From Bryum argenteum (Eukaryota > Streptophyta > Bryopsida > Bryales > Bryaceae), in NCBI GenBank assembly GCA_037043015.1, contig CM073330.1, positions 4,117,263 to 4,181,262 of the forward strand: a DNA stretch of 64,000 nucleotides, given 5' to 3'. Numbering within the stretch: position 1 is the first letter of the stretch; each line of letters starts with the position of its first letter. Below, in pieces: positions 28,303-61,659 of this stretch. A program made the translations under genes and the position numbers. The notes beneath the pieces were generated by a model. It was not told the origin of the DNA and made no database searches. It saw only the letters and a list, made by a program, of their open reading frames with translations.

Positions 28303-28358
<56 letters not shown>
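28303..28358. repeat. Poly(A) tract
   Basis: 56 consecutive A residues on the plus strand (poly-T relative to the transposase gene), between the element's left end and the transposase stop. Confidence 0.95.
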
Positions 28359-28360
<2 letters not shown>

Positions 28361-28802
28361 AAAAGATATGAACGAAGACTTCCAGAAACAATAATAATGA
28401 AAAAATCCAAACTACGCAAATACAAGTAGAGAAACGGAGGACACATAGAGTATGGGGGGGAAAAATGAAATAAGAAACCCTTAAAACAAATAAATGCATA
28501 AAGGTGAATATGCTACACATAAGAGAATGGATGGATCTTCAAGAAACTAATGTGGTTATAGTATATCATATATAACAAGCTCGGGGAATGACGATATATT
28601 GAAGATTTCATACATAAAGGCAGTTCTCAAGTATATCAAATATATTAAAACCATATTAACACATAAGATGAAATACTTGCCAATTTCTGCAGTCATTAAT
28701 TGAATTGAATAATAACCAAAATTGTTGCCCTCACTATACTGCTACTTTAAGGTCTATGAATATCAACTTGCAAAATAGGCTTGCAGTAGTTTGAAGGATT
28801 CA

Positions 28803-32350: not shown

Positions 32351-33191
32351 GAAACACAAGGAAAGAGAGTTTGGAACGCCGTGAAATGCAGAGTACTCTC
32401 AGGGAGGAAGAATGTAATGCCAAACACCATATGCGGCTAAACACTTGATATGCGCATTACTGATGAAAATTAGAGAATTGCGATGAAGTTGAGCGTCTTA
32501 AAGATAGAAACCAAGCAAGTAACGAATGAACTTGGTATGAATACTTCTACAACCATAAATACAATAAGACTTGAATATAGTATGATGAGTAGGCAATCGC
32601 CGTCAATAAGAAATATAATGGTATTGTCATTAATTCAACCACTTAGAATAGTGGTGGGTTGATGTTCATATTGATGATGTAGATCACTAGTCTATTTTAA
32701 TAAATGACCAAAGGAAACTATTTATGATGATTACAAAGAATGCCGCGGATTTCAAGGACTTTAACAACTTTAATAGGAAGTCGTGATGCTAAGGGATATC
32801 TTTAAGTGCGCCTCAAGTATTTAGAATGGTCAGATTATAGAGCTAGTTAGTGGCGATTTTTTTTTGAATGAACGGTTCATACTTAAAGTGTAGGTTGACA
32901 AAGAGCCCGACAGCTATCACCTATAATGCGAAGGGTCAATTTTTGATCTGTTTATTACTAATTTAAAAAAAGTAGAATGACAATATTATACCCCGCCGTC
33001 TGTGAAGGATACTCGTAATATAATAGAATATATTCGCATACTAAATATTTTCATGGTGTTTGTCAGCAATTGATGCCATGTAGTATTCGACTGTTATAGA
33101 AGATGAGTGGAATGTTAAGGTATAGATTTAGAAGGGGGCTTCTTCAGTGCTCTTTAGTGCTCAAGAGAGTAGTCTTAGATATTCCATACAC
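32351..33191. promoter_or_regulatory. Divergent promoter region of the Mutator-like element
   Basis: Roughly 840 bp between the outward-facing starts of the transposase (32350) and the ParB-methyltransferase gene (33192). AT-rich with no gene. A shared bidirectional promoter is inferred from layout only. Confidence 0.45.
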
Positions 33192-41728: not shown

Positions 41729-42116
41729 GTTTGAACGTCGTTTCCGACATTTGTTGTTTTCGTTTGATTTGATTTGATTTGATTGGATTTGATTATGTAT
41801 CGCTTCACACCTTTCTTTCGCACACTTCTAGCATAATTGTACTAGACCATCAAGGTTTGTTAATGGATTTAGAGTTTTATGTTCTTAGATTTGTCCACGG
41901 TAATAGGTGTTATAATTTTTACTACACTACAAACTCAAAATTGGTCTCCCTAAATATAACCAAAATCTTCTATTCATAATATCTTACATTCCAAAACTCC
42001 ACGGTCATAGGCACTCTTGGCCAAAACTCTTTTCTTCTTTTCTCCATTAAGTTAAATCGGTGAGCCTGCTCGTGGCTCGCCGCTCCCTGCTCGTGGCTCA
42101 CATCTTAGCAGCTGCC

Positions 42117-42307
42117 ACATTGAATCGCTCCAGCAAAACTTGAAACAACTTCTTCAGACCAGGCCTCTTTACAATGTTCCGATGAGGGTCCCAACGGTCA
42201 ACCGCAACATTAGGATCAATGAAGCACAGCAATCCCGACACGCAAAGGACAATGCACTTCTTGATGGAATGGGGTCGGTCGAAGATGGAATCAATGTGGG
42301 GAAGACC
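42117..42307 (-). pseudogene. HAD/FCP1-like phosphatase gene, 5' part of the split exon
   Basis: Exon opening after a TTTCATGCAG acceptor (42308-42317). It encodes KKCIVLCVSGLLCF, aligned with the motif I strand of plant NIF/FCP1-like proteins (usually ..LVLDVNGLL..), then KRPGLKKLFQVLLERFNV. The nucleophile Asp is replaced by Cys and the Asn by Ser, so catalysis is unlikely. It stops at the Mutator-like element; 42117-42127 is one copy of the target duplication. The 3' half continues at 27828-27355. The 5' exon is not identified; a palindrome copy sits in the preceding intron at 42376-42394. Confidence 0.75.
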
Positions 42308-42375
42308 CTGCATGAAAAAAACATGCAACACAGAAACAATTAGGTGTGAGGAATAACAAGACGATACAGGACTCA

Positions 42376-42394
42376 TATCGGCCGGCGGCCGATA
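42376..42394. repeat. TATCGGC palindrome
   Basis: TATCGGCCGGCGGCCGATA, a perfect palindrome around one central base. Another, with a variant arm, lies at 42753-42771 just downstream of the next gene. Confidence 0.9.
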
Positions 42395-42808
42395 TGGACA
42401 GAGGCGGTGGAGTACAAAGAGCAAGAGGGCCAACAAAAGAATCAGCACAAAGATATACATATCAAGCAAAACAGAGAGCAAACAAATACTACATGAATGG
42501 AATAATAAATCGAGACAACTCAGAGAATCAAAGAATGAAGTAAAGGCAGATGAAGAAAAATTATAAAGTCGATTGTCATATACCATGATGAAAAGTTTGT
42601 GAACAAAAAGGCGGACCTTAAAATGTACAGTTAATAGAAAAGGCCGACCTAAGTTCAATAAAAAAGTGCTACAAAATATCCAGATGGACGCCTATATAAA
42701 TATTCTATGAATGTCCAGGACTATATAATCCTAAAAAGAAACAAAGCAGAAGTATCGGCCGGCAGCCGACAAGAAATCCGAGGCCGATCTCCACGGCGTT
42801 GCGGAAGA

Positions 42809-44201
42809 CTATGAAGTCCTAGCAAGTTTGGACAACTCCGCGTGCAGAGGATTAGAAGGAAAAATCCTCAACTTCCCATGCTCGGAGTTGGCCTGAAAAA
42901 ACTCAGGAACAGGAAGCTGACTCTCTTTCAGCTGATCCAGCAAGGGCTGCAGAACAGTAAGGAGGACTGGAAATGCGGAGGATGACTTCTCCGAATCCTT
43001 CGTAAACGTCTCAGGGTGAAAAGCGCTGAAAGGATTATTGAGGACGTTTTTGTACGGGGAGTCATCAATGAGAAGCATATTCTCCTCGATGGCTCCACGC
43101 GCAACTAACTCAGGGCAACGAGAAAGAAGGTGCCTTATGCCCTTGAGAAAAACAGGAACACCTGGCCTCTGGGGGTCCTCGAAAGCACTTATCAAGCACA
43201 TGGATTGCCCATAAGCGAAAAGGGAGTTCGGGAATGAAGGAACCCTGTCCTGGATATACTCGAGACGAGATGTCAGGTTTTTCTCCTGAACGGAGGACCA
43301 GAAGACCACCTCAAACTCGTTTGCCAAACACCAAGCAAGAAGCTCCTTGAGACCAGGCCTAATCCGAGCCTCGGCCTTCTGCTGAACTTTCTGCTGAATG
43401 ATCCTCCCAGGACGAAAGTGCATAATGGTCCCATTGATGTCGAAAAGAAGAAAATATTTTCGAGGTACTTTAGGTGCGGGAGGTACAGAAGAAACAGACG
43501 CGAGGGGAGCAGACCGCTGCGGAGAGGTCCCCGCAGATCCATCTTGCTCTGCAATGCGAGAATAAGAAATTCAAAGACCAACATCAGAACATAGAGAGTA
43601 AAACTAGGTGGACAGAGACATGTCGGCCGGCGGCCGATACATTGTATGAACAGAACGGAGAACCAGAAATATGTACACCAAGCAGTACGCAGAATGAGAA
43701 TTTCAGAAACTGTATCGGTAGACAACCGACGAACTATAGGTGTCGGCTGGCGGCCGATACAATCTGAATTTCTCAGACGGAGCGTATTGCTCGGGAGACT
43801 GCGGCTAATTCTAATGTACTGAAGGTATAGATAAAAAGCTAAATCTACACCGACGTCTGGAACAAACCTCCAGTTTGCCGGGTCCGCTTCGGAGAAGCCT
43901 GCGCACACCGAATAGGAGACAACTCCTCGTTCGGCGAGTCCAACGCAGCCGCATTGGGCGGGAAGAGCTCAGCATTGGGGTCTGCATCGACAATGCGCTT
44001 GCGGGCTTGCGCGCGGCCACCACTTCCTACTGCATGTGCGGAAGATGTCGGCTGGCAGCCGACAGGTAAACGGCCGGCTGAGGACCTCGAGGCCGCACGC
44101 CTCGCATCGTGAGGGCCGGAAGATCGAGCGCTCCTGGATTGTGAGTTCAAGTCGAGAGTGATAACCTCGTCAACAGGCTCGCGCCGCAAGTCAACTTCCA
44201 T
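42809..44201 (-). CDS. HAD/FCP1-like (NLI-interacting factor type) protein, two exons
   Basis: Exon 1 is 44201-43868 (donor GAG|GTTTGT) and exon 2 is 43548-42809 (acceptor TTGCAG|AGCAAG); joined, they give 357 residues in frame. Exon 2 carries a HAD-fold phosphatase pattern: LLFDINGT as motif I (Asp then Asn, as in plant DxNG proteins rather than DxDxT), RPGLKELLAWCLANEFEVVFWSS as motif II, and LLIDDSPYKNVLNNP as motif III/IV. The family includes CTD-type Ser/Thr phosphatases, but DxNG members are not proven enzymes. Exon 1 is low-complexity and includes an in-frame copy of the palindrome, read as PVGCQPT near 44047-44066. The intron has three palindromes (about 43621, 43713, 43741). It is a paralogue of the broken gene next to it. 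Confidence 0.75.
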
Positions 44202-44697
44202 AGATGTCAAACTCCTATTTCTTTGGTTTTCTGCATTTAGCTTAAATTTTTCGAATTTTTGTGAGCTTTAGGAATAAAAGGGAGCTTTTCTTTTGGTTTC
44301 CTTAGTTTAGAAAGGGTAGAAATAAATAAATAGGTTTAGCCCCGGTTAAAGGGTTTTTATAGGTTACCGGCTGGGAAGGTCAACCCGGGTTTGGTAACCC
44401 TGGATAGCCGGTGTCCTGGCCGGGCGCGGGTTGGGGATAATGGGCGGCGGGCCAACCCGGCCTGTCAGCCCTAACCCCTTTCAGACGGCGGCCCCCATTT
44501 CGCGCCACTTCTCTTCCCCCTCTCGCGCTGTCGCTGCGCCGCGTTTGTCGTGTTGCAGCCAGGAGTGTCGCCATCTTGCGAGCGCGGAGTGTGGTGTCGG
44601 TAGGCCAGGAGATTGCGCGCCAGGGGAGTGTACCCGCGTTGGGGAGGAGTGCGTGAGCTGCCTGCAGTCAGGGTGGAAGTGCGGAGAGCAGGAAGCT
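44202..44697. other. Leader region upstream of the gag-like frame
   Basis: Promoter side of the HAD-like gene and, from about 44340, a change to GC-rich, purine-biased sequence that continues into the gag-like frame. No long terminal repeat could be paired by eye. Confidence 0.35.
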
Positions 44698-47600
44698 ATG
44701 GCGCCCAAGGAGAATGCGGCTAAGGGCAAATCTCGCAAGGAGAAGTCCCTGCCCGAAGCTATCCGGGAGAGGGGAGTGCACCCGGAGATCCCCGTCAAGG
44801 AAGCGTACCGCAGGCAGCTGAAGGAAGACCTAACGAGGATGGGCTGCATTGAGTTCTACAATCGGCCCTGGAACCTGCAGAGGCCCGCGTTGCTGAAGGA
44901 GGTCCAGACAGGAGAGCGTACCGCCAAATTCCAGGAGGATATGGTGCGGGGACAGCCTGATGTCTGGGAGAGGGGACTTTGGAGGATCACCTACAGCCTT
45001 GCTGAATCCGAGGTGGGGTATATCACGGTGCGGGGAGACGAGGAAGTGCAGCGGAGCTTCTCCCAGCCTGCACATGAGCACGACGGATTCAAGGTGGAGC
45101 ATTGCCTCGATTCCAGGTTGAAGAGGGTGCTGCAATTCCTCCTACCCATACTTACCCCGGACAGGCCTTCGAGTGTTGCCAACAAACTCGCCAAGGCTAT
45201 CCTGGAGTCATACGCGGGGAGGCAAGTAATTGGCTGGCACATCATCCTGGAGGACGTAGTAATCCGGGCAGTGTCCAGGATAAACAATGGCAAGGGTTGC
45301 CCATTGACTACATTCCTGTTCCACCTCTACGACGCCTACAATTGCCTGGATGATGATGAGGCTGCGCAATACGCCAAGGCCTTGGAGGAGAGGCGAACCA
45401 GGATTCCAGGAGAGTTTCCCCCGGAGGAAGGAGCAGGACAAGCCGGGACATCAAGGCGGGCTGATCCAGCAAGGTCAGGGGACACCAGCGGCGCTGCAGA
45501 AGAGGAAGAGGCAGCAGTTACTCCACCCCGAGCTCCCACCACAACCTCCCCAGGAGTACAACAGGAGACTCCCACAGGGGAGTACAACCCCTTCTCCCCC
45601 ATCAGTCCCGTACAGGGGAGTGGCTCAGGAGAGGAGTCACCTGCCGTCAGCACCAGGGCAATGCGCCGCAGCACCAGGCAACGGCAGAGGCAGGCCCCTC
45701 AACCAACACCCCGGGGCCCCATCCACCTAGACGACTCAGATGAGGAGAACCCTGTGCGGCAGGCAACCCCTCCAGGAGAAGGATCTCCTCACGATGCAGA
45801 CCAGGGGAAGGAGTTAGAGGATCCGCTGGAAGGAGAGCCCCAGCCAAGGAAGAAGAGGAAGGCCACCCCGGAAGTGCACCCGGAGTTGTCAGCCAACCTC
45901 TGGATGGGATCCCCTTCACCCAAGCTGAAGAAGCCTTCAAAGAGAATGAAGGTGACCTTTGCATCGGACCGGGGAGTGGGAGAGAGGCAACCTGCCAAGA
46001 AGGTGGTACCCTTGGCCAAGGGGAAAGTGAAGAGGAACATCCCGAAGAGGGGGTACGCGGGTCCAGGACAGGAGAGGGTGCCCAGGGAAGCGACGACTGA
46101 GGAGAGCAACGGGTCCGAAACCGAGTCCATGGACATACCCCGGAAGCCTGCAAGACCCCCATCTAATGCAAGAGAGTCCAGCACCCCCGCTCCAAGAAAG
46201 GAGACTGTCCCGGAGAAGAGGAGAGGAGCCATCCCCGGTGCACCTACTCCCCTGTTCAGGATTACGGAGGAGAATCCCCTGAACCCCATCCAGGAGACCC
46301 TGCAAATGTGCATGGAGGAGCACAAGGCGATGTATCGATCGCTCAGGGGAGTAGGGGAAGTCCTGAAGACGAATACGGTGGAGCGCTACCCCGAGCTGGT
46401 GAGAGCTATGCAAGAGCAGCGAGATGGCCTCAACAAGGAGGTGAAGGAGCTGCGGGATCAGGCCATGGATTTCTCCCTCAACGTCCTGACCCAGGATAAG
46501 GAGATCGAGGCATTGAAAAAGTATGCCTCGACCCAGAATGGGTGGGCGCGGGCTAACCTATTCGCATTGTAGAAGACTCTGCTCACGCCAGGGGAGGCTC
46601 AGGCCAAGGCGCGGTTATTTGATGCGCACCTGCGGGGTGATGGCGCGGAGGCCGCGGTGCGCATGGCTGCCTTCCTAAAGAAGTATACGGCGCGAATAGA
46701 AGGTGCCCTGGAGGAGATGCGGATCCTCCTCAAGGAGATGTATGAGCGGTTCCCAGGAGAGGCAGCAACAGCCGAGGTAACAGCAGCAGAGGCGGAGACA
46801 ACCTGGGGTGTTACGGTGCGAACAGGGGGAACAGGAGGACCAGGTGGGACTCCTTCGGTGTCTGCCCCCTTAGCCGAAGCTGATCCATGAGAGCAGATGG
46901 TGGAAGCCCAACCCGATGTGGAGATGGCATGGGAGGAGGAAGGCGATCCAGGAGTAATGGACGAAGCCCAGCTCGTGCCCAGGGTAGCGACGGAGGTTCC
47001 CCCGGAAGAGCCAGAGGCAATGGATGTTGTCCCACCCATTTCTGCAGGGACGCAAGAAGTACAGCTAGCAGGAGTGCCAGCTACCGAAGCCCAGCTCGTG
47101 CCCAGGGTAGAGGAAGTAGGAGAGGCACCCTCACCGAGGGAGGAGAGCGAGGATCCACCCGGACAGGAGGTAGGAGGGGCAGCTTCACCGATGGAAGAGG
47201 AGATAGCTGCTGCCCCACCAACCATGGAGACAAAAGAACACGTCGACCCAGGGGAAGGTGTCCCCGTGGTAGCCCCACCCGAGTCAGCAATGATTGAGCA
47301 AGCTCCCCCTGGAGAGGAAGCCGTTGCGAGTGCTCCCTCCGAGTTGGGAGTAGAGGGGGAGGTGCCACTCACAGAGGAGAAGGCGCCATTCCCGGGGAGA
47401 GAGATGCCCGATTGCTTACCTGTAGAAGAGGTAGTCGGGGAGGTTCAACGAGCAGGAGAGGTCACTACGGAGATCCAGCCTGAGCAGGAGTTACCATCAG
47501 TCGAGTCGATGAGGGCTGATGAACCAGGGCAGCAGGACGACACCCCAGGAGAGGAGGTCGTTGTAGATGGGGAAGCTCAGCCGGGAAAGGAGGTCATCGA

Positions 47601-48132
47601 GGGGATCCAGCCCGAACCCAAGATACCATTAGAAGAGGCCGTAGCTGATCATCCAACCAGGGTTGAGGTACTCGTGGTTGATGGGCCAGGACAGCAAGAC
47701 GACACCCCAGGAAAGGAGATCATGGTAGAAGGGGGAGTCACTCCAGGAGAACCGACGGGCCCACCCACTGAGGAACCTACCCCGGACTCTACTGACCCAC
47801 CTCTAAGCGAAGTCGAGCCGGGGGTACCATTGATACCCGAGACCCCTGTAGTGGTTCCGGAGGAGGTTGTCCTGGATGAGATTGAAGCCCTCTCCGGGGG
47901 AACGGAACCCTTGGATGTGGAACCCGAGGGGATCACGTCCAGGGGAGGACCGGATCTTAAGGAAGGTGCGGGTGGCAATCTGGAGGAGCGAGGAGAACCG
48001 GAGGTGACCAGCATCCTCGTCCAAGTGGACCAGGGGAGTGAAGACAGGGGAGCGGCCAAGAGGGCAGCACCTACCCTGGTTGGGTTTGATGGCCAACCTC
48101 GCATCAAGTTGACCAGGGCTAGATCTATCTAG
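44698..48132 (+). pseudogene. Gag-like / plant transposon protein, long frame with two in-frame stops
   Basis: One frame stays open from 44431 to 48132 except for TAG at 46570-46572 and TGA at 46888-46890. The likely start is the ATG at 44698 (MAPKENAAKGKSRKEK). The first 230 residues fold-like part (RMGCIEFYNRPW, HCLDSRLKRVLQFLLPI, KGCPLTTFLFHLYDAY) resembles the putative plant transposon protein domain found in retroelement gag regions; this is a weak, by-eye assignment. Then come a long Pro/Glu-rich disordered part with basic clusters (KKRKAT), a heptad-like coiled coil near 46300-46560, and after the stops a Glu/Pro-rich repeat region. No polymerase or protease follows. It may be a non-autonomous retroelement, or a gene with stop readthrough. 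The palindrome is absent from this block. Confidence 0.5.
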
Positions 48133-49238
48133 CGTTAGTTTAGAAGATAGGCATTTAGTAGTAGAAGGATAGAGGTGTGTTCACACCATTTTGGACTTTT
48201 AGTAGTTTTTTGTGTGTTTGACTTACAGGCGGTCCAGGAGAGGCCACGTGGGCCTTATCCTGTCCGGGTATTTCGTGATCCACTAAAAGCGGATCTGGAG
48301 CATGAAACCCGGAGTAGCATGAAAGTACTTAGCCAAGGAATGTTCTCATTCTTTGGGTCTTTGTTTGTATCATCATCATTCTCGAAGTATCTAGGGTTGC
48401 GGCCGCCTTTCCAAGTCTAAACCGTCTTCCTTGTTGTTTTGTGTGTGTGTGGTGGTGCAACTAAGTCCCTTGCATTGTTTGCTTGAAGATCTGGAGGGAA
48501 GGTTAGTGTTGGTGAGATCTGTACTAGTGTCCAAGGTAAGGAGTTTTGGCAGTTAGGCGTCACTACGAGTCAGTACTTTAGGTGAACAGGGGTTCCCTAA
48601 TATTCCCCGGGGACAGTGGTCTAGCGCGGGGAAGTTGGTCACTGTTGCGGAGAGTGGGTCTTAGTCCTCCTACTGTCCTGGATCTGTATCCAAAGTTGTC
48701 CCTTTCTACCTTCTATCCTGGTCTGGGAGCTAACGTGTGAGTAGCCAACATGGAAACATTGGCACCCTTATAGTGACCTGTACCGGGGTTAACAATCCTG
48801 GTATTGAAGGGGGCCGAGTCTAACCCTGGGCAAAGTCAAACTAAGAGAAAAGAGTATTGTTGCGTTGTGGGTTTGTGTGTTGTGTTGAGTAGTGAGAGAT
48901 TCGAGGAGAGAGGAAGTCAAGTGCCCTAAATCCAGCACTTTAAACTAAGGGAGAACCCTCTGATGGACAAACTGAGGTAAAACTAAACTAGCTTGGAGAC
49001 ATACTGGTTGACCAGGGTAGGAGGAGTTAAACTCCCCTGGAAGGAAACCAGGACAGGAGAAGCAGAATTGCTAACCAGGAGATCAGCACCATCTTGGTTA
49101 AAGGAGAAGTAAGATAGGACAGTGATAGAAGCACTGTCATGGGAAGGTTATCCTAGTCCCTTTGGAGCTCAGTGAATCCCCGCGGATCGATTAATCCGGA
49201 TATCACCTCTGAGAGTGTTCTTAACACTTAAAAGAACA
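48133..49238. other. GC-moderate non-coding stretch, possible extra exon
   Basis: A good acceptor (TTTGACTTACAG) at about 48231 opens a frame of about 60 codons to 48420 (AVQERPRGPYPVRVF), possibly a last exon of the gag-like unit. The rest has no gene. A hairpin, AGTGTTCTT with AAGAACACT, lies at 49214-49240, overlapping the stop of the next gene. Confidence 0.3.
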
Positions 49239-52200
49239 CTAAAGGGGAATATCGCTATCACGAATTACGACAATAGACGCTCCTCCCGCATCACGCACAG
49301 CAAGGTCCCGTTGCGCCGAAGCATCGGTTTCCCGGGCGAATGAATGGTCGACATGGGCAGAGTCACCACGAGAGCCGGAACTCGCGGTAGAGGCGCTAAG
49401 GTTCTTCCCTGGCGTGATCGGACATCCAGTCGGCTGCATCGGTGAAGGAGATCGGGTCTCATCGTCCTGTCGGCCGCCGGCCGATACATCAAATCCGGAC
49501 GCAGCAGTCGCTTGAGGGGCGGAGTCCAAATCAGCCGCCTCATCCATGTGAACGTCCCCATCATCCTGTCGGCCGCCGGCCGATATAGCTCTTCTCTGCA
49601 TGGGTGCGTGGTCAGGGCTACCTTCAGAAGACGAAATAGGGAATACGACTCGGTCTAGATTCATTCCCCGAACCCGATCCTCCGCCATCCTAACATCCTC
49701 TTCAGACCGAACGAACTCCAGAACTGGTCTGCCATTCTTCTGCGATTCCCAAAAATACAGAAAGTTAGAGATGTATCGGCCGGCAGCCGATAAGTACAGA
49801 CACTCCAAAAGAGAGGAAAAAAACAAACGGAATGAAATGTATCGGCCGGCAGCCGATAACTCTAGACACTCAAAAGAGAAGGAAAAAAGAAACGGAATGA
49901 AATGTATCGGCCGGCAGCCGATACATACAGGAAACCAAACAAAACAGGCGAGAAGCTTACCAATGCAATCTCGGTGATGTTCCCACCACCCCAGATATTG
50001 ATGAGGGTCGTCCGCTTCGAGCGGAGAACTGGTTTCAGGAACTTCTCCAGCGTCACGTGATCAACTCCGCAGCAACCACCGTTCCAGTCGACAGCTCCTT
50101 CCGGGCACTCCTGGAACCACTCGATCGGCTTCTGAATCCCTGTGAACTTCTTGAAGACCCTCAAGATGTTGTCGTCTGACCCAGTCTTCGGATAGGTGAT
50201 CGACAACGTGACGAGCGGAGAAGCGTCGAGCTCAAACCTCTTGAAGCCAGCGCGCGCGGAGGGCTTGTAGTCAACTGAATGCGCAGCCCAAGTTGCCGTA
50301 GCACAGCGCCAGATGGAAGCAAGTAGATCCCGCTGCTTCGAGGTGCCGATAAAGAACATCGGCACAGGAATGTCCGGCTTAATCGGGGCGACATCCTCAT
50401 CATCATCCTCGAAAAGATCCATTGCGTCGCTCTCAGTGTCGACGGTTGCGGCCTTAACGATAGCAAACAGCTTGGTCCGGTTGACCACAACGGGCTCCCC
50501 AGAGGGCGTGTAGCAAAAAAGAACAAATACCTTGGGGTCCCTTGTGATAACGGCATTGCGGGTTGCGTCCTCGACCATAGCAAGGACGTCGTCGACGGCG
50601 TCAGCACTCTTGCAGACGTAAGTGAGGCAGTCCCTGGTTGGCGCCACCCCGCCCGCAACGTGAACGGTGGTGTAGGTCTCCAAAATCTCGGAGAAGATGG
50701 CCGGCGCAATCCCGTTCTTCGACTTATCGGTGGTGGGATTCATCGAGTTCACACGACCATTTAGCCACTCGTTCCCTGCCGTGACCTTCTTCAGGTCCGT
50801 CCATATATTCCTGACGAGATCCAGTGTCAGGTTCTTCTCGCGGGCTAGCTCGTCCCACTTGTCATCAGTGTAAGGGACCCAGTTTGCATCCTTGCAGGGT
50901 AGAGGGTGGCCCTTCAACTTCCACATGAGCTCATTCATGATTACTCGGTCGAGCTTCTTGTCGCGGCACCAGTCCTGCAGCGTAAGCATCTCCTTCGTCT
51001 TGCTGTTTGACTTGATGCAGACCTTCTTCGCGATAATCTCCTTCGCGAGGCTGATGAGGTCGGAGTCCCGTAGCCCAAGCGTCGGAACGAGGTCCGACTT
51101 TGTGATCTCCGTCAGTGGCAGGCGGGGAACGACACCAGGCTCAGTGCCGTCATCGGCGATCAGCTCTCCGGCCTCCCAGGCGTTGAAAACTTCAATCCAG
51201 CTATTCGACGCCAAGTCACCGGCGAAGACGAGAGGCAGCTTACTGGTTGACTTCTCGGAGACGAAGTGCGCCATCACTTGTGCCTTGGCAAGCTGCAGCG
51301 AACAAGGAACATAAGAGCAGTAACAGATGAAACATTACTGTATCGGCCGGCGGCCGATACCAACAAAACATGAATTAAGTCAAGGAATAAATATATTAGC
51401 AAGAAGGTATCGGCCACCGGCCGATACCAACAAAACTTCAATTAAGACAGAAAAAATATCATAGCAAGAAAGTATCGGCCGCCGGCCGATACCGAGAAGA
51501 AGACATACCTCGTATTCCTTGGAACTCTTTCCACCTCCACGATGGGGTTGCGGACGACCCGCTCGGATCCATGCCCCACGCCCGAGCTCAGCGCAAGAAC
51601 GAAAATTCTCCCTCGCAACCTTCTCCGCAATGTTCAGGTTAAGCGCGTTGGAGACGCGAACTAGCTGCCGCGGATCCTTGTTGTAGACAGGGATCACTTC
51701 AAACTCCAGAAGCTCCTTATAAGCATCCGAGTCTTTCGGAAATGTGTCCGCGAGCTCCCGGCAAGCAGTGACGGTGTGCTGCCCCCCAATGATGTACCAG
51801 TGAGTAGACGGGTTCTCCCACCACGGAACTTTTGTCCCGTCAGGCATGGTAAACATCTCGGTCTCCGCGGGCATGTAGTCCATGACCGCATCCATACCAG
51901 AATCCGTGTCGAGGGGCTTCCGCTTTAGAGGGATCCCGTGAATCTCCGGCTTCTTCCGGATAGCCCCGTAGCCTTTGTATATGGCCTTCACCTAATAACA
52001 AAGAAGGGAGACATCAGAACAGCAGCATAATCTGTATCGGCCGGCGGCCGATAGAAAATGTAAGATAGGGAGTAGCAAAATATCACAGATAATGAGAAGA
52101 GCACAATGTATCGGCTGGCGGCCGATACAGAAATACGGAGAGCAAAAGGAAATTCGGATCGTACCTGACCCAGACGCTCCTTCGCTATCCTCCGGTACTT

Positions 52201-53943
52201 TAATTCGTCTGGTGCGATGTGCAGCCTCTCTGACGGAATTACACCTGGAAGCCGCCTTTTCTTGTAAGGGAATGATGCCAACAAGCCCTTCTCCAACGCC
52301 TTGTAGATGGCGTCGATTTCGGCATCACTTGTCTTCGTAGACATGCGATTCCCTCTCTCCAGCGCCTCGTCCAGATCGAGCTCCAAAACCTTGGTCGCTG
52401 ACTTCTTCTTCGAGCGACTGCTCTCCCCAGCCAAGACAGAACGATCCCCGACGCTGACAACCGCGTTGTCAGCGGCACCCGACTCCTTCCTCTTTCGAGC
52501 AGAAGGAACCTTCTTCTTCTGCTTGTCCGCGGCCGCCGCAGCTGCATCGAGGTACTTATTCGCCTCGTGCAACGCCCCCCTAAGCATCTCCCAGGAATCC
52601 ATAAAATCATCAACACTCGCTGGAGATGACGTACCAAAGAACATCCCCAGCTTCACAGAGGTCTCTCCGCAGAGTGCCTCCGTGCACTTACTCCACGGCA
52701 AGGATATGGCGATAAAATCTTCGTCCCCTTCAGGTTGGCCGGGCGGCCTAAGGCTGATGAGAAGGTCGACATTCTCCGGAATATTAACGGCCTTCTCAAT
52801 CGCCAAGACGGACCCGTGTCCCGGCATGATGTTCCCCTTGACGAGCACGGAGCAGACGACTTCAACCCTCCCCGTCGGCAAATCCTTCCAGTGGAGGCCC
52901 CAAGCATCAATGACCGGAGACCCCAGCCACGCAGCACGAGGAAAGACTCCGCCAATTGAAACGTCAGTGACGTCGAGGCTGTCCCCGAGAATCTTCTTCA
53001 GAAGACCCGGTTTCCTGTATCAACAAACCCAAGTAAGACCATGTCGGCCGCCGGCCGATACATACCAGTACAGCTGAAAAGAAGTTTAGACAACAACTAA
53101 ACATGCAAGACGGGATAACATATATCGGCTGCCGGCCGATATGCTGATACATATCGGCTGCCGGCCAATATGCTGATACATATCGGCTGCCGGCCGATAT
53201 GCTTATACATATCGGCTGCCGGCCGATATGCTTATACATATCGGCTGCCGGCCGATATGCTTATACATATCGGCTGCCGGCCGATATGCTTATACATATC
53301 GGCTGCCGGCCGATATGTCAATCCAGTACACAGTGATTTCAATTATCAATACATCCAGCATGAAGATGCCGATACAATGGCATGTATCGGCTGCCAGCCG
53401 ATAAAACACATATATCGGCTGGTGGCCAATACACATACATAACATGCAGCAGTACAAAAAAATTAAAATGCGGCCTAAAGATTGAGCAAACATATCGGAA
53501 GGAATTACAAACGACATATATAACAACATCAATGCATCAACAAATATCCAGGCAAATACGGCATCTATCGGCTGCCAGCCGATACAACACTTGTATCGGA
53601 TGGCAGCCGATACACACAAATGTATCGGCTGGCGGCCGATACACACAGATGTATCGGCTGGCGGCCGATACACACAGATGTATCGGCTGGCGGCCGATAC
53701 ACACAGATGTATCGGCTGGCGGCCGATACACACAGATGTATCGGCTCGCGGCCGATACACACAGATGTATCGGCTGTCGGCCGATACGCACAAACGGGGG
53801 ATCAATACAGCAGAACACACATATCGGACAGCAGCCGATAGAAAGGATTGTATCGGCTGCCAGCCGATAAAACACTTCTATCGGCTGGCGGCCGATACAA
53901 ATAACTAAGAAGAGCAGAGGGCTTACCTTGCGGATTCTGCCAT
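49239..53943 (-). CDS. ParB-like / DNA-methyltransferase-like fusion, second paralogue (5 exons)
   Basis: Exons: 53943-53927, 53014-52165, 51991-51509, 51292-49961, 49739-49239, all with GT-AG introns; joined they give 1060 residues in frame. Exon 1 is only 17 nt (ATG GCA GAA TCC GCA AG). Residues 1-289 are unassigned, with a basic Ser-rich part near 190. Residues 290-450 hold the ParB-like motif THWYIIGGQHTVTACREL (GGQHT near 358), followed by a segment on NALNLNIAEKVARENF. The C-terminal half is long; near 880 it reads LINIWGGGNITEIALKNGRP, which aligns with the SAM-loop of N4/N6 methyltransferases but lacks the usual Asp, and no DPPY was found, so it may be a pseudo-enzyme. Palindromes fill every intron, and exon 5 has two in frame (read SAGGRQDD). 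Head-to-head with a transposase-like gene at 55555. Confidence 0.7.
49468..49586. repeat. Two palindromes inside coding exon 5
   Basis: At 49468-49488 and 49567-49586, both TGTCGGCCGCCGGCCGATA. Each is preceded by CATC(A/G)TCC, so the neighbouring codons were copied too. They are in frame and introduce no stop. Confidence 0.85.
49774..49923. repeat. Palindrome array in intron 4, period about 66
   Basis: Palindromes begin at 49774, 49840 and 49905, separated by a similar spacer (GACACTC.AAAAGAGA.GGAAAAAA, GGAATGAAATG). Confidence 0.9.
51341..51491. repeat. Palindrome array in intron 3, period about 66
   Basis: Copies begin at 51341, 51408 and 51473 with a shared spacer starting CCAACAAAAC. 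Centres vary (CGGCG, CACCG, CGCCG). Confidence 0.9.
52035..52130. repeat. Two palindromes in intron 2
   Basis: At about 52036 (TATCGGCCGGCGGCCGATA) and 52110 (TATCGGCTGGCGGCCGATA). Confidence 0.9.
53042..53061. repeat. Palindrome in intron 1
   Basis: TGTCGGCCGCCGGCCGATAC, near the acceptor of exon 2. Confidence 0.85.
53123..53316. repeat. Palindrome array, seven units of 29 bp
   Basis: TATCGGCTGCCGGCCGATA starts at 53123, 53152, 53181, 53210, 53239, 53268 and 53297, spaced exactly 29 bp with the 10-bp linker TGCTKATACA. One unit has a base change (GGCCAATA). It lies in intron 1 of the ParB-methyltransferase gene. Confidence 0.95.
53383..53585. repeat. Three dispersed palindromes in intron 1
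   Basis: At about 53385, 53413 (variant GGTGGCCAATA) and 53567. Confidence 0.85.
53592..53899. repeat. Palindrome array, seven 29-bp units plus three more
   Basis: Units begin at 53592, 53621, 53650, 53679, 53708, 53737 and 53766, exactly 29 bp apart, with linker ACACACAGATG. Three further copies follow at 53822, 53851 and 53879 with the same 28-29 bp spacing. Most units are TATCGGCTGGCGGCCGATA. Confidence 0.95.
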
Positions 53944-55554
53944 TGCTGTCAAGTTGTATCGGCTGCTCTGACGCGGATGTCGGCCGATTAGGGTTTCGCT
54001 CCCACCACGTATCGGCTGCTCCACTCCAAGTATCGGCTGCTCCACTCCAAGTATCGGTTGCTACGCTCCACGTATCGGCTGCTATTACTTCAATCCGCGT
54101 CGGCTGGCTGCAAAACTCCGTGTCGGCTGCCGTCGGAGAGAAAAAACAGGAGACAAGAGGATGCGCGGAAAAGAGGGGAGGAGGGAGAGAGAAGTGGAGA
54201 GGTGCGCGGAGGAGGGAGAGAGAAGTGGAGAGGAACAGTGAAAATGAGAGAAAAATGGGGGGGGAAGGGGGTATTACCCCCCCCTCTTGAAACGACGGGT
54301 CGCGTCGCTTTCCATGAGGCGGCGCGCCTACCCGCGATCGTGCCCGTCTGCCCGCGCCTGCCCGCTCCTGCCCGTCTTCTGCCCGACGGCTGCCCGCTAA
54401 AAGATTCGGCTGCCCGCCGCCAAAACGTCACGAATCATTGCTTGCTCCTCCCCCGCTCTCCATTCAAATTTCTAATTTCTTGATTTTTGAAATCTTCTTG
54501 ATTTTTGAAATTTTCTTGATTTGGGCGCCATTTCCTGAGTGGAGTAGGCCTAGGGTACCCATTCACTCCCATTTTTCACATTTCTCTCTCCCTCTCTCCC
54601 TCTCTCTCCTCATGCTTTCCTGTCCCCTCGCTCTCCTCTTCATGCTGTTCTGTTGCTAATTGTTTAGAGGCCGTGGCATCAACTCTAATTTCTCTGTTTT
54701 AGATATTTTGACATTGTTTTTGCGTCGAATATTCGGGAATATTCACAGATTAGTTTTGGATCTCCAAGCTGTAGCTTTTACAATAACGCCGGCCGATATC
54801 GTGCTCTCATCAGCCGATATAATTTAGGTCATATTTACCAGAATTCTAGGCCTTTGTCTGACCAGCCGATATAATTTTCTGTCCAGCCGATATAATTTCA
54901 TTGATCTATTGTATCGGCCGCCGCCGATCTGATGTTCGCGATCCCCAATCCCGATCGTAGAAGTCAGATCGGGCCGCCGGCCGATACATTTTTCTCCATC
55001 CCCAATCCCAGTCGTGGAAGCTGTATCGGCTGTCGGCCGATACATTGTTCTCCATCCCCAATCCCAGTCGTGGAAGCTGTATCGGCTGCCGGCCGATACA
55101 TTGTTCTCCATCCCCAATCCCAGTCGTGGAAGCTGTATCGGCTGCCGGCCGATACATTGTTCTCCATCCCCAATCCCGTGGAAAAGTGGAAGTCGATCGG
55201 TCTGCCCGGCCGATACGGTGTACTCATTCACCCACACCAAGATTAGATCTTTGATCGGCCGCCGGCCGATAGTGTTAGCGATCCAAGCCATCCAACTCAG
55301 GCTCTTATCTCAGATCGGTACGCCAAATGATATTACTTCCTCACCCTCTCTGTCCATAGCCGTATCGGCTGCCGGCCGATACTTTTGTTTCACCTGTGGT
55401 CTGCTCTTCGCGGTATAACTGTTCAGTAATTGTAGCTGTGTCGGCCGCCGGCCGATACTATTTTTGGAAATCCACATTCTAGCTCTTCTAACTGTATCGG
55501 CTGCCGGCCGATACTCTCCTACTTTCGGACTAGGATATTCTGTAGATCACGGAG
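53944..55554. promoter_or_regulatory. Divergent promoter region with palindrome half-sites
   Basis: Separates the outward-facing ParB-methyltransferase (start 53943) and transposase-like (start 55555) genes. Near 53957-54130 there are single arms GTATCGGCTGCT or CGTCGGCTG at least five times without their partner arm; near 54785-54900 the opposite arm CAGCCGATATA occurs alone. 54160-54300 is a GAGA/GGGAG-rich stretch, and 54580-54640 is CTCT-rich. A shared control region is inferred from layout. Confidence 0.5.
54969..55215. repeat. Palindrome array, period 56 bp
   Basis: TGTATCGG begins at 55022, 55078 and 55134, exactly 56 bp apart, with spacer TTGTTCTCCATCCCCAATCC and CCAGTCGTGGAAGC. Diverged edge units lie at about 54969 and 55194. 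Further single copies lie at about 55254, 55363, 55439 and 55495. Confidence 0.95.
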
Positions 55555-58500
55555 ATGAAGCGTCTGCTCCCATCAGTTCTGGAAACTGAACCGATTGACT
55601 CTTTCACTAGGAATGGTGGGTCGGGTAGATGGATGATAGCTAAGGACGTCGTTGTCGTGTTAACCCACGCTGGACTTTATTACGCCGGTCGTGCTGCTAT
55701 CAAGAAGAATGCGCGTCGAGACCCCTCCCTGCTAGAGGTCCTTGTTCTGGATGTAGCAAGTAATATCGAGATGATTATACCATTTCCCACGGACGATTTG
55801 AAGCTTCTTAGTCAGTGCGTTGGTAAGAGAATCGTCTGGGAGGAGCGATATGTGAGGCCTCTAATTGATGAATTAGATTCTGTCCCAAAACCTATCGGCT
55901 GGCGGCCGATACCTGAGAGTATTGAAGAGAAGCCCATCGAGGAGTTCCTAACTCTTACCGTGAACATGGAGGTTGCGCTTCTGCACGTCGATCAGTCTGC
56001 ACATCACTGCGCTGGAATTGGACTGATAGTCGAGTGCTCCCCGAAAGGAACATGGGAGGGGTTCCGTGTCCCGCACAGCTTTTTTGTCGTTGTTCAGCTT
56101 CGGAAGATATGTAAGGACTTTGAAGGAATTACCGCTTACTGTGAGGAGCCAGCTTTCACTACCCTAGGTGACTGTCTTGGGCTCAACATCCTCTGGAGTG
56201 GATACAAGGTCCGACCTGTTCAACTGATGACTGCTCCTGTCACACCTATCGGCTGCCAGCCGATACCCCCTGCCTTGAAGAAGGTCAAGCTCGAGGATCA
56301 CGGTGCTGAGCTTTCCGACTCCCCGCCCTCTACCGATTTTTGTGGCAGTTCCGGCCACCCGTTTCCTGAGCAGGGTTTTTCGGAGCGCAGCGATGATGGT
56401 GGGTCCTCCACCAACTCTCATGTAGGGAATCAGGATCCTCCTCTCCCTACATGTCCCGACGTCAACCACAGCCCTGTACCAACCCAGCATCGCTCATCTT
56501 GCCCCAGCGTCGGATCAGAAGGACATGGAGCGTCGGAGGGTGTTGGGTACACGTCCCCACCGTCTAATGCCAGTGATGTCGACGCGTGTCTTGAATCGAG
56601 TCTTCCTTGTCTTGACCGACCGCTCTGGAGAAACAAGTGCTGTGACTTGTTGAATGAAGATCTATCCTTCTTCGGTAGGGCAATGATTCAGGTCTGCCTT
56701 CCAGACGAGGCATGCGATGAGAATGTTCTTGGAGATACTGATGTTGGTGTCATGTTTCTTTCGGACGACGCTGCCCTTCAAATGACAATACTGCGTTGGC
56801 CCCTATCGCGGACGAGGCTTGACTGCGGCCGACTTCTCTCCGATATTGTTATTTCCTGCTCAGCTGCTGGTCAGAAGGAGACCCCTGACTGCCCTGGTCT
56901 CCAAGGCGTCCCTCGGAACCCTTACAGGTCTGTGCGTCGAAAGATCTTATCCAAGGATCCGAAGGCTGGGTCCAAATCCAAACTTAAAACCTCCGACGAC
57001 GAGGTTCGAAAGGTTAGTTCTCAGAAATGCTGCAAGGATAGATGTTGTCAAACGTTCCCGTGGGAGTCCACGAGAACCCTCCGACGGAAATTCTATGCTT
57101 GCTCTTTTGAAGCCAGAAGGGAGATCGCTTATGCAGTCCAGAAGCAGCTTAATGTTCGCACCCCCGGTGGCAGGAGGTTCATTACTCTCGAATGCGTGGA
57201 TGTCTGCGAGAATGCCTGGTACATCATTCACGGTGTCTCCCGGTCTGCTTACCACGTCTACAAAGCAGCCGCTATCTCAGGGTCCGTTAGCGGTTCTCAT
57301 GGTAACGCAGGGACGCTCGACCGCGGCCGCAAACCATTCAAGCTCGTGCGACATTGAAGAAGATCATTGACGAGAACGCTGACCAGATGCCGAATGAGTT
57401 CAGACTCGTCGGGAACAAGCGTGTCGATAACCTCAAAGTTGTCCCCTCCACGATGAGCTGGGACCACATGCGCGGCCAAGTCAACGATGTAAGCCACAAC
57501 ATTCGCACTTTCCTTCACCCTGTTTCTTCGTCATTTTCCAAATTTCGTTCTTGGAGTCGACAAAGTTTAGATGCATTCTGTGTATCGGCCGCCGGCCGAT
57601 ACAATCAGTATTCAGTACTCCATGCGTTCTCGAACCTATCAGCCGCTATGCCTATCGGCTGCCGGCCGATATGTTTTCCTTCCCCCTGTTCTAACCGCAG
57701 TTTTGCATCATGATCTGTAGGTTAATCTGAAGTGTAACATGGCGCCTGTCTCTCAGTCCACGATTAGTCAGCTCCGGAAGTCTCACTTTAAGAATGTGGA
57801 CGTCAAGGCCGTTGGATCTAGCTTCTCCAAGTGCACCGAGTGTGACTTTCTTGTTGAATGCATAGCCAAATATCCGAGAGGCTGCGATGAGTGGCAATCA
57901 CTTGTCGATGACAGGGAGCGGCATCTTAATTATCAACGTGCTTGCCGGAATATCTACGCGGGTTGGAGTACGCAGTCTGTGCAGAATCCATCTGAGTTCT
58001 TGTGCATTATTCACGACAAGATGGACACGACGAAGACCGCCATTCCGAGGATGCAGAGGATCACGAAGGCTACCGCAGGCCTTGGTCAGATACCCATTTC
58101 GGTCACGGGGATGCTAACTCACGGCCACGGTGACGGTGCCTATGCGCACTATTCTACTGCTCTCTGGCCAGGTGATTCCAATTTTACTATATCCTCGCTC
58201 TGTCGGGTCCTCCGCGCCCTCGAGCGACCGCCTGTTCGCGACTCGAAGGTGCTCTTTCCGACACCCCCGCAGAATAGTTTCTTCGAGGCGCTGCTCCATG
58301 GCAAATCGAGATGTTTCTCTTCGATTCCGCCCTCCACCGGGGTTGCCATGGACCCACCACTCCCTGGTCGCCCTGCTGTTCCTCTTCCTAGGAAGCTGTT
58401 CTTACAGCTTGATAACTCTGCCAAAGACAACAAGAACAGATTCGTGATGGCTTTCTGTTCCTTGCTTACTGCGAGGCGCATATTCAAGGAAGTCACTGTT

Positions 58501-59730
58501 GGTTTCCTAATAGTTGGACATACTCACGAGGACAATGATGCTCATTTCAGCTACTTGTCCAAGCTTATCAAGAAGAAGAACACCTACGTGGTTGCAGATC
58601 TCATGAAGGCTTTTATGGACTCCCAGAAGACCGTCGCTTTTATTCCTGAATTTGTCCAGGAGGTGGCAGATTTCAAATCCTATGTCAAGGACTTCCATCA
58701 CGATGGTGTCAACAAGATTGTCGGACTCGGTGATATGCATCTCTTCAAGTTCTTTGTTGAGGAGGAGGGACCGGATCGTGGTTGGCCGGTCATAAGGTAC
58801 AAGAAGCAATCTACTGATTCGTCTTGGCTCCCTCCGGGTCCTCCTATCAAGATGTGGACTCAGGACTCACACGGCAGACCACGGCTTCCTTCTGGTGATC
58901 CACGTCCTGTACCATTCAAGCCTTTATGGGGAGTTACGGACGTTAATCCTCGAAAGCTGAATTCAGAGAAGGAGCAAGCTCGCGCTTCAGAGTGCAAGGA
59001 GAAGCAGGGTTTCATCAGAAATGGTATTGCGAAGTTCATCGAGTTCTGGAAGATGGGCATGGCTCGAAATAGAAAATACTGTGAGGAGATGGCTGGCTCC
59101 GTTGGGTACTGGGAGCGAATCAACGCGGAGATCAACTCACCACTTCCGCTTGCGTCCGCGTCCCTCGTCGAGGGGTTCTGGCCGCTTTCTGACTGGTCCC
59201 GTGATCATGCTCGTCTTGAATCTCAATCTGGTTCTCCTCTGTCATCTTCGCCAGATGTTACACCTGAGGATGATCCCGACCCTTACCCATATTGTGGTCC
59301 AGCAAAGGGCAGACCACGGATGAATTTTAATCCGTTCAGGGACGTTCTTCTTGGTGACTTTGTTCTCTGTCGTCCTTGCGACAACCACTACCTTCCTGTG
59401 TGGCTTGGTCGTGTTCTAGAATGTGTCGAGCTTTCGCCGGGAGTTAAATACGGGAACTTCAAGGTGGAATGGTGGACTCCAATGCGATCAAAGAAGGAGG
59501 CCAAGTCTTTGGTTGCGAGGGAGTGCTGGTCGCGCCGTTGGCACAGGGAGCCCTGTCTCCCCCAAGTTGTCAACGTCAGCATCGTTTTATTCTCGCATCG
59601 AATGCCCTCCCATGCCAGGAATGGGCCACCTGCTACTCACGTCATTCCTGATGCATCCGCCGCTGCTGCACTTGCAAACCTTGAAGCCGCAGGTGCTGTT
59701 ATGGTGTGCGAGGATGATGCCGAGAACTGA
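55555..59730 (+). CDS. DUF7869-type transposase-like protein
   Basis: Three blocks: 55555-57281, 57311-57488 and 57721-59730. The second intron has good GT-AG sites and two palindromes. The first gap is only 29 nt (GTCCG..AACGCAG) and fits the frame change exactly, but is too short for a usual intron, so a frameshift is possible. The first part is unassigned and contains two in-frame palindromes (PIGWRPIP near residue 113, PIGCQPIP near 231). A Cys-rich KCCKDRCCQTF segment (near 490) precedes CVDVCENAWYIIHGVSR. The last block has the DUF7869 signature: LFLQLDNSAKDNKNR (58396 on) and GFLIVGHTHEDNDAHFSYLS (58500 on), with Asp and His residues arranged like a DDE nuclease. This family is widespread in plants and animals and is regarded as transposon-derived; its chemistry is unproven. 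Confidence 0.75.
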
Positions 59731-59749
59731 TCTGCACTGTACCTGGTTA

Positions 59750-59880
59750 TATCGGCTGCCGGCCGACATATTTTCGTAGTGCTGCATGGTGATATTGTCG
59801 TAGTGCTGCATACTTCGACATGCCAATGGTGACCTGGACGTGATGATGCTTTCTCCGGTATCGGCTGCCGACCGACATGT
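59750..59880. repeat. Palindromes just after the transposase stop
   Basis: Two copies at about 59750 and 59860 with the right arm changed to CGACAT. Confidence 0.85.
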
Positions 59881-59913
59881 CTATGTAGTGCTGTATGAGA
59901 TGTGCTGATTCTG

Positions 59914-60164
59914 TATCGGCTGCCGGCCGACATGTCCTTTTAGTGCTGGAATTCGCCGGTGTCGGCTGCCGGTCGACAAGACTTCGAAGTGCTGGAATTC
60001 GCCGGTATCGGCTGCCGTCCGACATGTCTTTGAAGTGCTGGAATTTGCCGGTATCGGCTTCCGGCCGACATGACGTTGAAGTGCTGGAATTCGCTGGTAT
60101 CGGCTGCCGTCCGACATATCTTTGTTGTGCTGTATGTCGCCGGTATCGGCTGCCGGCCGACATG
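59914..60164. repeat. Palindrome array, six units of 46 bp
   Basis: Units begin at 59914, 59960, 60006, 60052, 60098 and 60144, exactly 46 bp apart, with a spacer containing GAAGTGCTGGAATTCGCCGG. The right arm reads CCGACAT and is less conserved than the left arm. Confidence 0.95.
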
Positions 60165-60308
60165 TTTTCAGTGAACATCTCAGGATTGTTTCTGTTACTT
60201 GATCTCAGTAACGCCTCAGTCTTATGATGCTGGAGGCTCGCCCTCATATTCTCAGTCCCATGCAACAAGGAGGTTCAAATAAGGATCACTACTGCGTTGC
60301 AGCAGTTA

Positions 60309-60700
60309 TCGGCCGCCGGCCGACGTACTCTGCACAGGCATTTTTTTAGATTAGTTTCAAGCTACCATGACAACTAACCGTTGTTGGAATAGCCGGCTAT
60401 GTATTGGATTCTTATCGGCTACCAGCCGATACGCCACTCACTTAGCATGCTAGTATCTTTGGTCATATTGAATTTTTTAAACTTGTACGTTTTTACTCTA
60501 TACTAATTTCGTATGATTACATTCATCAATTTGTTTTTACCTCACTTTGTTCGATATGCTTTTGGGCACCCGCCGCATTTGCAATTTACCTCCCTTCTTA
60601 CATGTGTGTTTCTTATGTCATGGTCTCATCATATCGGCTACCCTCCGATACCACATGATAGATATCCATTAGGTGGCATCATATCGGCTGCCATCCGATA
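60309..60700. repeat. Dispersed palindromes, right flank
   Basis: Copies at about 60309, 60414, 60632 and 60681, increasingly imperfect (TATCGGCTACCCTCCGATAC). A last degenerate one is at about 61059. Confidence 0.85.
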
Positions 60701-60711
60701 CATTTTATGAG

Positions 60712-61027
60712 ACTAGGGTTTAGGGTCTAGGGTTTTGGGTCTAGGGTCTACTGTCAAGGGTCTAGGATTTAGAGTTTCAGGTTTAGGGTCTTAGTGTCTT
60801 CGGGTTTTAGGGCTCACGGTTAAAGTTTAGGGTTAGAGTTTAGGGTTTTAGGGTTTAGGGTTTAGGGTTTAGGGTTTAGGGTTTAGAGTTTAGGGTTTAG
60901 GGTTTAGGGTTTAGGGTTTAGGGATAGGGTTTAGGGTTTAGGGTTTAGGGTTTAGGGTTTAGGGTTTAGGGTTTAGGGTGTATTGTTACTTGCGGAGCAT
61001 TTTTTGGGTTTAGGGTTTAGGGATTAG
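60712..61027 (+). repeat. Interstitial telomeric repeat (TTTAGGG)n
   Basis: Degenerate units from 60712, then near-perfect TTTAGGG from about 60840 to 60977, then a second short block at about 61008-61027. The sequence GTGTATTGTTACTTGCGGAG follows each block, so the end was duplicated. Plant-type telomere motif in an internal position. Confidence 0.95.
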
Positions 61028-61069
61028 GGTGTATTGTTACTTGCGGAGCATTTTTTGGTATCGGCTTGT

Positions 61070-61659
61070 AGCCCATATTTTATTTTATTCTCTTGTTTAG
61101 TCTTCGTTGTTACTAATTTTGTATTGGTTTGTTATATTATGAATGCTTTTAAATAAGTATATTGCTTATTTTATTTGAAGTTATTTCTTTTGAATTCATT
61201 TTAGCCAGTATTTCTTGCGTTTTTAGTTTTTTTTAAAGGTATTTTTAGAGATGAATTGTCCATAATTCGTCAAAATGTCCATAATTAGTTAAATATCCGT
61301 TTAAATATAAACAGTAAAAAGTTCACAACATACACGGTAAAACCTGTAAAACATGGTTACACATAAATCTTGTTGTAGCATGCTCACAAAACTTATTTAA
61401 CACACTTGTTTTATGTATTGTACTTAACATACGGCACGTAAAGCACGTTACAACCGCAACACACTTAAAACACACACACAAAATACACACATAGAACACG
61501 TTAAAACATACATGTTAAACTCAAACATAGGACATGTCAGAACATACACGTTAAACAATACAATATATACACGTTAAATATGTAAAACATTACATACATG
61601 TACACATATTACGCGTAAAAACATGTATGCAATGCATATGTAAAACACAAATTGCTAGA
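61070..61659. other. Gene-free AT-rich region
   Basis: Many AACACACGTTAAA-like words as at 15900-16450. No gene recognised. Confidence 0.4.

Follow-up and report, generated by a model that had tools for sequence, protein, structure and literature searches.

A transposon interrupted by two insertions

We analyzed 64,000 bp of the genome of the moss Bryum argenteum (contig CM073330.1, positions 4,117,263 to 4,181,262; the window), in which a 19-bp palindrome is repeated many times. The palindromes are carried by a DNA transposon of ca. 14.8 kb that spans window positions 27166-61301 and is interrupted by two nested insertions. Its left part (27166..27828) begins with the terminal inverted repeat (TIR) AACGGGTATTTAACTAATTATGGACA at 27166-27191 and holds palindromes at 27212 and 27320. 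The second part (42117..44204) has them at 42376, 42753, 43621, 43741, and 44046, and the third (49273..61301), with 54 of the 61 palindromes, ends in the right TIR at 61276-61301. The target site duplication TAAA flanks the element at 27162..27165 and 61302..61305. In a copy at C1:1604635-1619150 the three parts are contiguous and show 94-99% identity to the window. A first-pass annotation had described the palindromes as lying around one locus, with two outlying sites at 27.2-27.3 kb. The outliers exist, at 27212 and 27320, and seemed apart because the two nested insertions split the element; the locus is better described as a single transposon divided by two other insertions.

The ca. 26-bp TIR was found genome-wide at 175 forward and 175 reverse places with up to two mismatches, and at none for the control. 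Duplications of 4 bp border all four large copies in which both flanks were compared (TAAA in the window, TCAT at C1:1604635, ACTA in copy B, and ACGT in locus L016). TIRs together with a target duplication of fixed length in several copies identify the element as a cut-and-paste DNA transposon. The copy in L016 (3544-8945) is 5.4 kb long and has both ends of the window type (type A) and the ACGT duplication, without most of the middle of the element; this 10-kb locus contains eight palindromes.

Three coding units were recognized in the element: a phosphatase-like open reading frame (ORF), a gene marked by a GGQHT motif, and a gene of two exons with a DUF7869 domain at its end. The NIF-like phosphatase ORF (42809..43570, minus strand; Pfam PF03031, E=2.8e-08) probably continues at 27355-27828 beyond the first insertion, where the match to PF03031 over 27355-27963 has E=0.019, below the cut-off. 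The GGQHT gene (49239..53019, minus strand) has about four exons with approximate limits, and palindromes occur in its inferred introns at 49774-49923, 51341-51491, and 52035-52127. Dense palindrome arrays with a 29-bp period fill 53042..53897 between this gene and the divergent DUF7869 gene, and further sites, partly in a 56-bp tandem repeat, lie at 54910..55513 directly upstream of the DUF7869 gene. The open frame containing the first exon of that gene, which encodes the N-terminal region, runs from 55546 to 57357 on the plus strand, with in-frame palindromes at 55893 and 56247. Two palindromes lie in the inferred intron (57583..57671), which is followed by the DUF7869 exon (57721..59730, plus strand). 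The 3′ palindromes (59750..61077) include a 46-bp period array at 59913-60165 and end with the site at 61059. A TTTAGGG-like tract occupies 60714..61058 near the right end. The window element has 24 exact units of this telomere-like sequence and the C1 copy 18, compared with 5 for B, 4 and (in reverse) 6 for family E, and 12 for family G; outside the window, tracts were seen in loci L031/L032, L035, L036, and L039, and overall they occur in families A, B, E, and G.

DUF7869 is the sole Pfam match of the 669-residue exon (PF25273, E=6.9e-41, 140.4 bits against a cut-off of 26). In 49 sequences D271 and D273 are invariant, D231 is nearly so, and GHT occupies positions 266-268. DDE/D transposases combine an RNase H-like fold with three acidic residues, and the protein is probably one of them. 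A search of the Protein Data Bank (PDB) with the DUF7869 profile gave no match, and a profile search with the first exon found no family. The closest named proteins are from the mosses Ceratodon purpureus and Physcomitrium patens. The window protein gave 70 match rows in its own genome, and the Pfam family at least 151 matches, with the best 150 of 1809 candidates scored; such gene lists are lower bounds since the best candidates alone were scored. C1, which accounts for 44 of 259 Mb, holds 40 of the 70 match rows but 2 of the first 40 rows for the small derivative described below, and may be a chromosome with little recombination, perhaps a sex chromosome. The first-exon frame closes near 57.3 kb, inside a stretch that related proteins read through, and for that reason the window copy may be broken.

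Insertion 1 (27829..42116) lies outside the element proper, with an 11-bp duplication ACATTGAATCG and inverted ends of ca. 26 bp; the length of the duplication and the inverted ends suggest a Mutator-like element. Insertion 2 (44205..49272), likewise foreign to the element, has a 5-bp duplication ATAGA and TG...CA ends. Its two long ORFs have no significant Pfam match, and it is possibly a retroelement without polymerase. Elsewhere in the window, a transposase (PF13843 DDE_Tnp_1_7, E=1.1e-56), which we take to be of the piggyBac type, is encoded at 11871-13745.

Distribution and persistence of the palindrome

Sites were defined as TATCGGC-N5-GCCGATA with at most two arm mismatches unless stated otherwise. 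The 64-kb window contains 61 of them, against a mean of 0.04 and a maximum of 1 in 100 dinucleotide shuffles. The consensus is TRTCGGCYGSCRGCCGAYA. The conserved arms and the variable YGSCR center given in the first-pass annotation were both recovered: TCGG (positions 3-6) and CC (14-15) are invariant in 61/61 sites, and the center has Y at position 8 in 60/61, G at 9 in 52/61, S at 10 in 59/61, C at 11 in 58/61, and R at 12 in 60/61. Its count of more than 60 sites holds for the whole window; the interval 42376-60700 to which it was assigned contains 58, the remainder lying at 27212, 27320, and 61059. With up to three mismatches there are 62 window sites, all of them inside the transposon and none elsewhere in the window. 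By approximate gene limits, 57 of the 61 sites fall outside coding sequence, which makes up 57% of the element. They occupy the inferred introns of the GGQHT gene, the region between the divergent genes, the DUF7869 intron, and both flanks, so that the earlier placement in introns and flanks stands while exons account for only 4/61.

Two of these four coding sites lie in the DUF7869 gene and encode IGWRPI (55893) and IGCQPI (56247). At the aligned positions, Ceratodon P0006 has VGCPPT at both, P0008 has VGCPPT once and nothing similar at the second, and Physcomitrium P0011 has VGGPPI and IGGPPT; copy B reads IGRQPI at the second site and nothing similar at the first. Compared as protein, the Ceratodon and Physcomitrium peptides could be encoded by a palindrome.

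A search of the genome (258.8 Mb, 25 contigs) returned 635 exact sites and none for a reversed control pattern. The sites examined individually are those in the window and in the listed C1 places, and many others may lie in the 343-bp derivatives. Co-localization with element genes was assessed for these listed places, up to 5.33 Mb for A and 26.1 Mb for D, a second DUF7869 family described below, with each place counted once. Of the nine A clusters on C1 (50 of the 635 sites, 0-5.33 Mb), seven are no more than 15 kb from an A gene or end, where rotation predicts 0.49, and none is near D genes. One of the remaining two belongs to a small derivative and the other to a fragment of 88% identity. 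Listed D clusters on C1 are near D genes in 17 of 29 cases (1.0 expected) and near A genes in 4 (1.65 expected). At these C1 places, the correlation with genes that had been proposed as a check links the motif strongly to the genes and ends of the element.

Comparison of the C1 copy of A with copy B, which are 61% identical where aligned, showed that the sites persist although their flanks have diverged. For 45 aligned A sites, 13 of the 14 arm columns are 0.69-0.93 identical to B (one 0.57), while flanks reach 0.26-0.62. An A site coincides with a B site in 28 of 56 cases, against a mean of 1.6 and a maximum of 8 in a shifted null. Since repeated motifs can attract alignment, we relied as well on the number of sites in B, which is 36.

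These distributions bear on the idea that the palindromes are passive, either a very small mobile palindrome or by-products of tandem duplication without a binding partner. Many sites do sit in short-period tandem arrays (29, 46, 56, and 65 bp), which duplicate locally, and half of the A sites (28/56) have no counterpart in B. However, in the window and the nine C1 clusters no site was found outside element-derived DNA, the sites have been retained while their flanks diverged and are concentrated in noncoding sequence, and the palindrome found 5′ of the same gene changes from family to family. We regard a passive origin as very improbable, and the suggestion of an independently mobile palindrome found no support, all examined sites being in element-derived DNA.

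The palindrome is also retained in a short derivative. The 343 bp at C1:3358654-3358996 are bounded by A-like ends and a TAAA duplication and contain two A palindromes as well as a central inverted repeat. At least 40 near-full-length copies head the best-scored matches from 542 candidates. We aligned 21 derivatives, the one at this position and 20 chosen among the higher rows of a 40-row list, a choice that favors good copies. Exact 4-bp target duplications border 18 of the 21. Site 1 is present within three arm mismatches in 21/21 and site 2 within four in 20/21, with one deletion, so that a palindrome usually lies near each end. Being short, non-coding, and multicopy, with inverted ends and target duplications, the derivative is a miniature inverted-repeat transposable element (MITE).

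If the sites formed RNA hairpins or cruciforms, or if a host factor or host DNA methylation targeted them, their palindromic form, their CpG content, and their presence in introns would be expected. From 53.1 kb rightwards, moreover, centers read on the DUF7869 strand are T..G rather than C..A in 29 versus 1 of 43 sites by approximate gene limits. In B the sites between the genes lack this preference (0 vs 2 of 13). The pair at positions 2 and 18 also speaks against hairpins: in A (61 sites) it is A-T in 43, G-T in 7, A-C in 10, and G-C in 1, and in B (36 sites) A-T in 9, G-T in 14, A-C in 11, and G-C in none, plus C-T in 2. A-C is thus as common as G-T. The two halves vary independently and without base-pair covariation, which argues for a double-stranded dyad over an RNA hairpin and is what a dimer bound to double-stranded DNA would give. 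Motifs exclusive to families would be left unexplained by a host factor, and the observed/expected CpG ratio is about 0.9 in the element versus 0.78 in the rest of the window. Hairpins and a host-wide regulatory site are both disfavored, and we consider explanations of this kind quite improbable.

Related families and the candidate binding protein

Other DUF7869 families have their own repeats. In the D family, with about 50% identical DUF7869, two loci contain 39 and 29 sites of the 20-bp palindrome CATCGGGCGATCSCCCGATG and no A sites. Their layout is similar to that of A, with a GGQHT gene, palindromes where that gene presumably has an intron, and an array preceding the DUF7869 gene. The D1 locus also holds a 176-bp satellite-like array of about 14 copies (L026 4838-7787). 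Among eight distant DUF7869 loci that were read (L033-L040, with E represented twice), five have repeats 5′ of the gene. Family E has CAGTTTAGCTCGASTCGAGCTAAACTG 13 and 12 times in its two loci with a 46-bp period, F has the imperfect dyad GGGGTGGGCATGTTTCCACCCC 8 times, mostly 61 bp apart, G has GTTATCGTCGRCCCGACGATAAAC 10 times, 54 bp apart, and H has GGGGTCTTAGGCCTAAGACCCC 3 times, 58 bp apart. In all four the array is 5′ of the DUF7869 ORF. When the six motifs were counted in 16 stretches the result was nearly diagonal, the only off-diagonal counts being 1, 1, and 2 for the G motif in three A/B stretches and 1 for the H motif in L038.

We put the probability at roughly 0.55 that the palindromes are family-specific cis sites of a large transposon, bound by an element-encoded protein that is most likely the DUF7869 probable transposase. 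A dimer of this protein, probably contacting DNA through its N-terminal region, would bind each 19-bp dyad. Sites near the inverted repeats would help to choose the ends for mobilization, while arrays located in introns or 5′ of the DUF7869 gene would regulate the element's expression or free it from silencing. The palindromes of DUF7869 families may have changed together with their proteins, which would prevent cross-activation between families. The protein-binding site that the first-pass annotation proposed would fit the dyad symmetry, the persistence, the family exclusivity, and the presence in the small derivative. We infer binding and the identity of the binder from these features of sequence, and the possible effects of binding (end recognition, expression, protection from silencing) from the precedents of CACTA and VANDAL elements.

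That annotation named two potential partners, the DUF7869 protein and a "ParB-like" fusion, here the GGQHT protein. The GGQHT motif resembles the ParB/sulfiredoxin signature. The label gained no support: the protein has no ParB (PF02195) match in Pfam up to E=10, searches of Pfam, NCBIfam, and the PDB gave no result, a PDB profile search returned only TubR at E=0.96, and hhalign with one E. coli ParB-like protein (YbdM) gave 0.1%. A homologue search with YbdM found close relatives only and was not used further. The only hint was PHROG 1033 at E=0.011 for one homologue. GGQHT proteins occur in A, B, C-type, and D elements, and that of the window is similar to the D-family protein in its core (E=3e-13, 29%) and in a downstream exon (E=2e-26, 29%). 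No GGQHT or GNHR motif was found in 20 kb around E1 (C1:15249001-15269000), where the left end of E was not found; the stretches read for its presence in F, G, and H span 4-8 kb each.

We favor DUF7869 over GGQHT as the binder because DUF7869 accompanies every array family sampled, with sampling mainly at DUF7869 loci, including those of E-H, whereas GGQHT was unseen in E. A VANC-like, sequence-specific role of the GGQHT protein as binder in anti-silencing or spreading, with DUF7869 only cutting and joining, is nevertheless a serious rival, if an unlikely one, because elements with the GGQHT gene have sites throughout and exon 1 of that gene evolves rapidly. The A, B, and D copies with the gene have the most and the widest-spread sites, including in its own introns, and a D copy of the gene is close to 15 of the 29 listed D clusters (0.96 expected). 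In many copies exon 1 shows about 45-52% identity, against mostly 80-84% for DUF7869, as expected of an arms-race factor. Insertion 1, too, combines a repeated palindrome with an ORF bearing a GNHR motif (37568-38239), which has no significant similarity to the GGQHT protein. Against this, family E has an array without the motif nearby, the palindrome consensus is unchanged between A and B though their GGQHT exon 1 is about 51% identical, and the tests gave no support for a ParB fold. A more elaborate version, in which the DUF7869 superfamily has a private addressing code with one palindrome per family, read by that family's own protein, and in which the GGQHT protein of the window lineage loads as a second factor onto dozens of palindromes and spreads in a parS-like manner across the entire element to keep it unsilenced, seems improbable to us.

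Several observations weigh against DUF7869-bound, family-specific sites. Arrays were sought mainly at DUF7869 loci, so that the presence of DUF7869 in all array families is partly a matter of ascertainment, and the unrelated insertion 1 has the hyphenated palindrome CCCACTGTCTGCTCCGACAGTGGG (with small variants) in six places at 34467-35942, partly in a 372-bp tandem repeat, yet no DUF7869 match; these two points reduced our confidence. The stretches read at L034, L038, and L040, three of the eight distant loci, contain no array. The F array came from a repeat finder and was left unflagged by the automatic palindrome detector (n=2), which gave 1-2 for simulated sequences and for stretches without a known element, save 6 for L005 (D-type sites beside a DUF7869-like stretch) and 6 for insertion 1. 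On C1, 12 of the 29 listed D clusters are near no listed D gene. Alignment of repeated motifs can inflate the apparent conservation in B. In the derivatives, conservation at the sites (0.94-0.96) does not exceed that of the rest (0.96), and the second site was probably inherited, because its distance of 46 bp from the end matches that of window site 27212; for the first, the window element has no site at a matching distance.

Comparison with known systems

Iterated family-specific motifs in plant transposons are already known. CACTA elements (En/Spm, soybean Tgmt*) have subterminal repeats bound by TNPA, with a Tgmt* motif that can form palindromes, and a motif that varies by family and is thought to diverge with the DNA-binding protein of the element (PMC2613891). 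The moss element is similar in being a large plant DNA transposon with a reiterated motif that differs between families. It does not belong to the CACTA group, having AACGG ends and a 4-bp duplication instead of CACTA ends and 3 bp. A DUF7869 protein takes the place of Tnp2, which was not recovered in profile searches with the DUF7869 exon and the first exon, and the sites are dyads of ca. 18-27 bp throughout the element including introns, whereas those of CACTA are at the ends only.

VANDAL elements have a Mutator-like transposase and a 9-11-bp duplication, and the moss element, with DUF7869 and 4 bp, is not one of them. The VANDALs of Arabidopsis have a short, repeated family-specific motif, often in tandem and in noncoding parts, that differs between related families; the motifs are non-palindromic, of 8-9 bases (YAGTATTAY, AGTTGTCC), and anti-silencing by VANC was demonstrated (PMC5735166, PMC10398659). 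The likeness lies in family-specific motif repeats in noncoding DNA (57/61 sites, and the nearly diagonal motif counts) accompanied by a variable accessory protein, and the difference in the longer, palindromic moss sites, for which anti-silencing is here only a hypothesis.

The parS/ParB system has a palindromic site in many copies, and a multi-copy palindrome beside a gene with a GGQHT motif recalls it; unlike parS/ParB, the moss sites are in a chromosomal transposon of a plant whose protein has no significant ParB match. The derivative of ca. 343 bp resembles MITEs in its inverted ends, target duplications, lack of coding capacity, and many copies, but most aligned derivatives keep the family palindrome near each end.

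Listings of the open-licence literature that we searched contain no DUF7869 superfamily carrying such sites, no long dyad sites throughout a whole element including introns, no parallel families with different palindromes 5′ of one gene type, and no mention of DUF7869 at all. The function proposed here for DUF7869 is that of transposase of a large, abundant superfamily. One moss genome provides six palindromes, each linked to a different DUF7869 family. This set makes it testable how transposon proteins and their recognition sites co-evolve and keep families separate, as has been proposed for CACTA and VANDAL elements.

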